NCBI RefSeq assembly: GCF_000168975.1
Contig: NZ_AAUW01000003.1
Span: 186,001-250,000 of the forward strand
Source of the DNA: Roseibium aggregatum IAM 12614
Lineage (GTDB): Bacteria > Pseudomonadota > Alphaproteobacteria > Rhizobiales > Stappiaceae
Reading direction: 5' to 3'
DNA: 64,000 nucleotides
The stretch's first letter is position 1. Every line of letters starts with the position of its first letter. The notes below the pieces were generated by a model that was not told the origin of the DNA, did no database searches, and was given only the letters and a program-made list of their open reading frames with translations. The translations under genes were made by a program, and so were the position numbers. Positions 48,390 through 49,520 of the stretch are shown here, one piece after another.

Positions 48390-49520
48390 ATGAAAGCGGC
48401 AGCAGCACAGGAACAGCCGGAGCTGATCGGCGAAGCCGAATATCAGACTCTCGAACAGACCCTGATGGAGTCCGATCGCGGGCGCAGGTTCCTGAAAGAG
48501 TTCCTCAATCGCAACAAGACACCGGAAACCACCGAGATCCTGACTGCGATTGGTCGGCTTGAAAAAATGATGACCCGGCAACGCAAGGTGCCGGACCTCG
48601 ACAAGATCCGACTCGACATTGCGGACATGCACGAGGCCATAGAGCGCACCAAGGCGGAGATTGCCAACATCAAGGCGGAAGGCGAGGAAAGCAACCGCTT
48701 TGTCGACGCCTCTCATGAACTCGATGCCATCGTCACCCAGACCGAAGGCGCGACCCAATCCATCCTGGAAGCCGCCGAGCAGATTCAGGAAAAGGCATGG
48801 GTCCTGCGCGAGAACGGTGCCGAGGATGCGGTCTGCGACGACATCGATGCCAAGGCGACCGAAATCTTCATGGCCTGCTCCTTCCAGGATCTGACCGGCC
48901 AGCGGACGAACAAGGTGGTCCAGGTGCTGCGCTACCTTGAAAGCCGCATCAACCTGATGATCAACATCTGGGGCATCGAGGAAATGGACGCCGACGCGAC
49001 GGCCGGTCCTGTCGACAATCGCCCGGATGCTCATCTCCTGAACGGTCCGCAGCTTGCTGGCGGCGTTTCCCAGACCAACGTCGATGAGCTGATGTCCGTG
49101 AGCGACGATGTGTTCGACGCCGCGCTGAAGGAAACCGGCGTCGATGAGAGGGCGCCGGAAGCCCCAACCCATGCCAGCGCAGCAGACGTCGATGCCATCA
49201 TGGCGACCGAGTCCGACGTCGATGACATTATGGCCGGCGGCGATGAGCCCATGGATGCGGCCGCCATCGACGACATGTTCGCCTCAGCCCCCGCGGCCGA
49301 GGAAGAAGAAGAAGACGAAACCGAACTCGCCGGTGCAGATCCGGACGCCACCCTGGACGAGGCTGCCATCGAACGCCTGTTCGACAGCGAAGTCGGCGAT
49401 ACCGCCGACGAAGCCGAAGCCGATGCGGAATGGGAACTGACCGAGGAAGTCGCCGAGGAAGATGGCGAAGACCCGCTGAAGCAGCTCTCCGAAGCAGAGC
49501 GTCAGGCCCTTTTCAACTAA
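48390..49520 (+). CDS. CheZ-like protein phosphatase with long acidic tail
   Basis: A 376-residue CheZ-family protein. The N-terminal 200 residues form the long helical hairpin; residues 165-171 read FQDLTGQ, matching the CheZ active-site motif whose second Gln attacks phospho-CheY, and Asp/Glu-rich residues lie nearby. The C-terminal 170 residues are acidic and disordered and hold five short motifs of the form x-(V/I)-(D/E)-x-(I/L/M)-(M/F): NVDELM, DVDAIM, DVDDIM, AIDDMF and AIERLF. E. coli CheZ has one such helix (VDDLL) that binds CheY. It is convergent with the globin-coupled receptor gene. A terminator follows. Confidence 0.78.
   Translation: MKAAAAQEQPELIGEAEYQTLEQTLMESDRGRRFLKEFLNRNKTPETTEILTAIGRLEKMMTRQRKVPDLDKIRLDIADMHEAIERTKAEIANIKAEGEESNRFVDASHELDAIVTQTEGATQSILEAAEQIQEKAWVLRENGAEDAVCDDIDAKATEIFMACSFQDLTGQRTNKVVQVLRYLESRINLMINIWGIEEMDADATAGPVDNRPDAHLLNGPQLAGGVSQTNVDELMSVSDDVFDAALKETGVDERAPEAPTHASAADVDAIMATESDVDDIMAGGDEPMDAAAIDDMFASAPAAEEEEEDETELAGADPDATLDEAAIERLFDSEVGDTADEAEADAEWELTEEVAEEDGEDPLKQLSEAERQALFN

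Follow-up and report, generated by a model that had tools for sequence, protein, structure and literature searches.

The window analysed here, a 64,000-nucleotide stretch of the genome of Roseibium aggregatum IAM 12614, encodes a CheZ paralogue in which the docking element of a CheZ-type phosphatase appears to have been multiplied, with one motif at the expected position followed by an acidic tail that contains three or four more helix-forming motifs. We favour, with moderate confidence, the reading that this CheZ carries extra CheY-docking sites that would gather several CheY molecules around two active sites, with binding at motifs 2-5 proposed from their sequence. The docking role of motif 1, the ancestral CheZ docking helix, is well supported by homology. 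The gene and its catalytic stretch are located as follows:

48390..49520, forward strand: CheZ paralogue, whole gene, 376 aa (open reading frame; PF04344 E=1.7e-12; 1kmi_Z E=7.1e-4)
48882..48902, forward strand: catalytic stretch FQDLTGQ, residues 165-171, with D167 and Q171 aligned to D143 and Q147 of 1kmi_Z

The product had been described as CheZ-like in the initial annotation, and the family comparisons identify it as a CheZ. The PF04344 (CheZ) profile scores 48.1 bits against a curated cut-off of 30.7, and residues 152-235 align with residues 128-209 of 1kmi_Z, an interval that covers the linker, FQDLTGQ, and the docking helix. Both FQD and TGQ are without variation across 19 orthologues, and the D-x-x-x-Q pair (D167, Q171) is conserved in all 19 rows; its counterparts, D143 and Q147 of 1kmi_Z, are what we take to be the catalytic pair. 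This assignment agrees with PMC7750401. The NCBIfam CheZ equivalog model NF008368 gives 40.9 bits against a cut-off of 257, which marks the protein as a relative and not an equivalog; a score so far under the cut-off points to a distant paralogue that has retained its catalytic residues. The best reading of these alignments is that the window protein would be a catalytically competent CheZ, that is, a phosphatase of phosphorylated CheY (CheY-P). The genome itself (G000; 6.56 Mb) has three CheZ paralogues, with the window gene on contig C46. A scan of viral contigs with residues 1-244 as the query found no relatives. We rejected a link to the globin-coupled receptor encoded next door: among the 21 loci L074-L094, the receptor gene flanks 6, whereas the MFS gene flanks 20.

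The initial annotation had placed five CheY-binding-like motifs at 49077-49382, and all five were recovered, the first of them reading NVDELM from residue 230:

49068..49097, forward strand: motif 1, SQTNVDELMS, ancestral CheZ docking helix by homology, aligned to SQDQVDDLL of 1kmi_Z
49185..49202, forward strand: motif 2, DVDAIM, residue 266, a lineage-variable tandem copy of motif 3; profile rank 2
49215..49232, forward strand: motif 3, DVDDIM, residue 276; profile rank 4
49263..49280, forward strand: motif 4, AIDDMF, residue 292; profile rank 3
49365..49382, forward strand: motif 5, AIERLF, residue 326; profile rank 5, under threshold

Within motif 1, Q228 and D232 are invariant in 19 rows and in 41 rows, two sets that are partly shared. 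In motif 5, Glu replaces Asp in the window protein, and forms with Asp, such as IDKLF, occur in some relatives.

The similarity of these motifs to known docking helices was assessed with a 10-column profile trained on other CheZ proteins (90 rows, 73 distinct motif sequences), a set that excluded the Roseibium orthologues of the window gene and included paralogues A and B (some from Roseibium) as well as motif 1 of Stappia and Pannonibacter. The selection pattern for the training motifs required Gln and I/V-D, so these columns are fixed by construction. Among all stretches of the window protein, the five motifs occupy profile ranks 1 to 5, with all-column scores of 20.5 for SQTNVDELMS, 9.5 for SAADVDAIMA, 9.2 for DAAAIDDMFA, 7.6 for TESDVDDIMA, and 2.6 for DEAAIERLFD, followed by SEAERQALFN at -2.6. 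For comparison, scores of 15.8, 14.1, and 21.1 were obtained for the motif of the strain's own FliM, the second motif of CheZ-B, and the 1kmi CheZ motif (last letter assumed), respectively. Motifs 2-5 are thus clearly weaker matches (2.6-9.5 versus 14-21 for known or classical motifs), chiefly because of a missing Gln: all 73 training motifs, having been picked for it, carry Gln three residues ahead of I/V, whereas motifs 2-5 have A, E, A, and E there. In addition, motifs 2-4 have Ile or Met at the classical Leu position. When scoring is restricted to the last seven columns, a test in which the Gln column was dropped after its absence in motifs 2-5 had been seen, motifs 2, 3, and 4 reach 12.2, 11.7, and 12.9 against a 5% training threshold of 8.84 and thus clear the score that 95% of training motifs attain; four of the five motifs pass, and motif 5 (IERLF), at 6.3, fails.

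Matches to the seven-column profile are rare in the background, with a mean of 0.034 in 5000 shuffled tails and 9 in 43,643 residues of the other window frames of at least 150 codons. The simpler pattern [IV][DE].[LIM][LMF] occurs five times in the tail, whereas 5000 shuffles of that tail average 0.07 occurrences; this pattern is post hoc, having been chosen with the motifs known, and the profile therefore serves as the main evidence. On these sequence counts, a chance origin of the five-motif set is excluded.

The tail had also been called a disordered acidic chain, and it is indeed acidic and predicted to be mostly unstructured. An AlphaFold model built from 41 sequences places helices at all five motifs (228-235, 267-270, 274-282, 290-298, and 324-335) and three further tail helices, at 239-248, 339-358, and 368-375, where no motif lies; in a 19-sequence model, motif 2 is without a helix. 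The pLDDT of the tail in the 41-sequence model is low to middling except at its end, where helix 368-375 has the highest tail value. With pTM values of 0.25 and 0.26, neither model has a confident overall fold, and both were therefore used for secondary structure only. A PDB structure search with the first model returned no match at E <= 0.001 and no CheZ among the best 50 of 134 matches.

Two conserved parts of the protein lie outside the motif series:

49485..49517, forward strand: C-terminal conserved helix LSEAERQALFN (mean majority 0.96; helix 368-375)
48417..48602, forward strand: N-terminal helical module (RGRxFL..RN...T), residues 10-71, present in 41 of the order's 61 genomes, with the strain's own among them

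LSEAERQALFN, which the initial annotation did not mention, is nearly invariant and surpasses the rest of the tail in conservation, with LS..ER.ALFS as the common form across the order. Its candidacy as a sixth CheY motif was rejected, since SEAERQALFN has R-Q in place of the I/V-D pair (seven-column score 0.1) and a similar C-terminal end occurs in three homologues that lack the catalytic pattern. Six homologues (L051, L176, L187, L188, L189, and L191) retain an RGRWFL-type N-terminal module, while no CheZ catalytic motif was found elsewhere in them, as judged by pattern in the 19 loci read from the 41 genomes with a match to the N-terminal module; the similar end is present in L051, L176, and L189 and absent in L187, L188, and L191. 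SEAERQALFN probably has a role other than CheY docking, perhaps one linked to the N-terminal module. No Pfam family scored over its cut-off in residues 1-100.

These features bear on the alternative that the conserved helices of the tail bind no receiver and serve instead to place CheZ at the cell pole or to let it self-assemble, with a convergent likeness to CheY motifs. Conserved helices without a motif are indeed present in the tail, the C-terminal one is kept in the three homologues without the catalytic pattern, and PMC7750401 describes Azorhizobium caulinodans CheZ as polar without CheA, with more than one region sufficient. However, the tail motifs match in specific columns (I/V-D-x-L/I/M-L/M/F), a match that is rare in shuffles and background frames, and we regard the alternative as quite improbable.

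Conservation across the genus separates the motifs from their surroundings. A relatives search gave a match in 51 of 61 genomes, own included, and 37 genus orthologues were collected, with the window gene among them. By a relaxed pattern, motifs 1, 4, and 5 are present in all 37 and the motif-3 slot in 30. Taken whole, the tails contain three motifs in 7 orthologues, four in 22, five in 7, and six in 1. Across 58 pairs at 80-99% identity, which are non-independent, dN/dS is 0.05 in the core, 0.11, 0.44, 0.06, 0.01, and 0.06 in motifs 1-5, 0.02 in the C-terminal eleven residues, and 0.18 in the linkers, where uncertain alignment of variable stretches may inflate dN. The 40 residues of motifs 1, 3, 4, and 5 are more conserved than 89 linker residues (Mann-Whitney p=1e-9; motif 2 excluded from both sets). 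Judged from these substitution ratios, motifs 3-5 are under purifying selection near that of the catalytic core, and free synonymous change at the same sites (pS 0.69, 0.70, and 0.52 at motifs 3, 4, and 5) argues against the low dN/dS being due to an overlapping gene. For the most part, slot 4 reads ID-x-MF and slot 5 I-D/E-x-LF, so that each has a conserved form of its own. The motif conservation on which the initial annotation had staked its proposal therefore holds for motifs 1, 3, 4, and 5, which are kept as a core set, whereas motif 2 and the number of motifs are variable.

Motif 2, with a dN/dS of 0.44, is the odd one out and is a variable tandem duplicate. In the DNA, the motif-2/3 pair is a 20-nt copy, 90% identical, 30 bp apart, and the copy number of this motif type has changed at least eight times on the core tree (37 rows; 14 of 34 inner branches drawn open). 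Such a 30-bp tandem duplicate with repeated copy-number changes is what neutral, functionless duplication within a low-complexity acidic tail would produce. As an account of the tail as a whole, this process is highly improbable, contradicted for motifs 3-5 by their low dN/dS and by the presence of motifs 1, 4, and 5 in every genus orthologue; it is likely to apply only to motif 2. Of the CheY-binding likeness originally proposed, the docking role of motif 1 is upheld by homology, and motifs 2-5 fit the CheZ profile less well, lie on predicted helices, and, except for motif 2, are under purifying selection.

The other CheZ tails examined show how far this arrangement extends. In the same genome, paralogue A ends with a single motif, TQDDIDALFA, and paralogue B (CheZ-B) has two terminal motifs, SQDDIDALLGGAQADIDKLFD, the second starting 11 residues past the first. 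In a set of 67 tails from outside Roseibium, 24 carry one or more extra motifs and 43 carry none. The extra matches total 26, against 1.99 expected from shuffles, and include the doubtful DVDALD, DDDDMM, and DVDDPF. The 67 tails include apparent duplicate organisms (e.g., L042/L105, L045/L126, and L047/L147) and two contigs of one genome (L111/L112), and they exclude L048, L097, and L141, which are cut by contig ends, and nine loci without an LNGP-type landmark (L046, L051, L131, L138, L145, L148, L149, L152, and L153). Clear extra motifs are EIDALF and DIDALF in Stappia and DVDALF in Cohaesibacter, and a second DIDALF stands at the extreme C-terminus in a Parvibaculaceae MAG, a Rhodobiaceae MAG, and others. 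In a sample of the phylum, 41 of 150 genomes have a CheZ match, and none of the 27 CheZ proteins with the catalytic pattern among the best-scoring 29 loci (L215 and L216, without that pattern, were dropped) has two motifs; since 24 of these 27 come from outside the class, this control says little on other Alphaproteobacteria. Extra motifs are thus recurrent in the alphaproteobacterial CheZ proteins of the order and, among those read, most numerous in the orthologue group of the window gene.

A motif of this kind also occurs outside CheZ. A 170-aa protein without a Pfam match (G000:C44:47447-47956, reverse strand; L171/L224) ends in AQAEIDALFA, a classical FliM/CheZ-like motif, and has homologues in 24 of 31 genomes searched; the end reads AQAEIDA[LM]FA in 19 of 19 genus members and is more divergent in five homologues from outside the genus. 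It is a possible candidate for a CheY-docking protein.

Likely ligands are present in the genome. Directly upstream of CheZ-B lies a CheY of 127 aa with a best E of 2e-42 against solved CheY chains. In E. coli numbering, it retains Y106, K109, and K119, and other residues of the interface differ (e.g., A90S, K92T, and A99K). At this locus (G000:C39:95758-96943; L157), cheY is followed at once by cheZ paralogue B, and the che cluster is on a different contig, C47. A second CheY (C47:166827) is encoded inside a cheA-W-Y-B-R cluster, the gene names being assigned by reading. The strain's own FliM (L154, G000:C46:167420, reverse strand) has one motif, NQEEIDNLLG, starting at residue 82; together with a close CheY in the genome, this suggests that CheZ and FliM present one motif class to the same likely ligand. 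Ahead of the CheY motif, this FliM has three acidic N-terminal repeats with the cores WGAALAEQ, WGAALEEQ, and WAAMIDD. A second FliM-like protein (L155, G000:C42:145960, forward strand) is encoded elsewhere, and near its start a recognisable CheY motif is absent by eye.

The range of receivers in the genome, with 65 receiver-domain matches including two CheY-type proteins, underlies the main rival, according to which motif 1 alone would serve the CheY that is dephosphorylated, and motifs 3-5 would serve other receivers (the che-operon CheY or other single-domain receivers) or other partners, making the tail a hub and not an avidity device. The absence of Gln, which sets motifs 2-5 apart from motif 1 as a class, and the separate conserved forms of slots 4 and 5 are compatible with such a division of labour. 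Nevertheless, apart from motif 1, no other stretch of the protein fits the CheZ profile as well as the extra motifs do, and the training list shows that motif 1, too, differs between members of the order at the same hydrophobic positions, so that we consider the hub fairly unlikely.

Under the preferred reading of extra CheY-docking sites, the additional motifs would each be expected to make weak contact with the face of CheY that FliM and CheZ use. A CheZ dimer, a state assumed by analogy with E. coli, could thus keep several CheY molecules at hand, so that CheY would be locally enriched around the two active sites. Dephosphorylation of CheY-P may then be faster or steeper, and the tail may compete with FliM for CheY.

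Comparison with characterized systems places this architecture in context. In E. coli CheZ, a single C-terminal helix on a flexible linker catches CheY-P and brings it to the active site of a four-helix bundle, and the usual picture of CheZ is one docking site per active site. The window protein shares with E. coli CheZ (PDB 1kmi, solved with CheY) a phosphatase core with D-x-x-x-Q, a linker, and a docking helix of the form SQ..VDxL. Unlike the 214-residue E. coli chain, which stops just past its single docking helix, the window protein continues for about 140 residues more, with three or four extra motifs and another conserved C-terminal helix. The N-terminal CheY-binding motif of FliM belongs to the same class, FliM being a switch protein with one such motif in this strain. 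Bacillus subtilis FliY, which has a phosphatase role and one motif, is of an unrelated fold. Its resemblance to the window protein lies in a terminal CheY-binding motif, in this case on a protein that has a CheC/FliM-like domain (PMC8809382). A. caulinodans CheZ is likewise alphaproteobacterial, with a conserved catalytic pair, and has a single C-terminal helix at residues 225-236 according to PMC7750401; the short motif ACNFQ, the sole basis of the assignment, equates it with paralogue A (one motif), whereas the window gene has ACSFQ. In open-licence literature, searched by titles and the openings of abstracts, no CheZ with several CheY-binding motifs was found, which is no proof of absence.

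A model from 2006 proposed that CheY-P bridges CheZ dimers into oligomers with one docking helix per subunit (PMC1447658), whereas the window CheZ has up to five docking motifs per subunit. By extension, the tail might be a multivalent, CheY-P-dependent assembler, in which each CheY-P would touch the docking helix and the active site of different dimers and cross-link phosphatases, each dimer with 8-10 docking helices, into a dense cluster. Dephosphorylation would then set in steeply with CheY-P, and species would tune the threshold by gain or loss of motif copies; we judge this extension unlikely.

A CheZ with a variable count of selected motifs, together with sister paralogues that have one and two, constitutes a natural series in which to test how docking valency governs the decay of the signal, the capacity of the sink, and competition with the motor. 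Furthermore, the earlier proposal that CheZ forms active oligomers through cross-linking by CheY-P could be put to the test with this protein, which seems made for the purpose.
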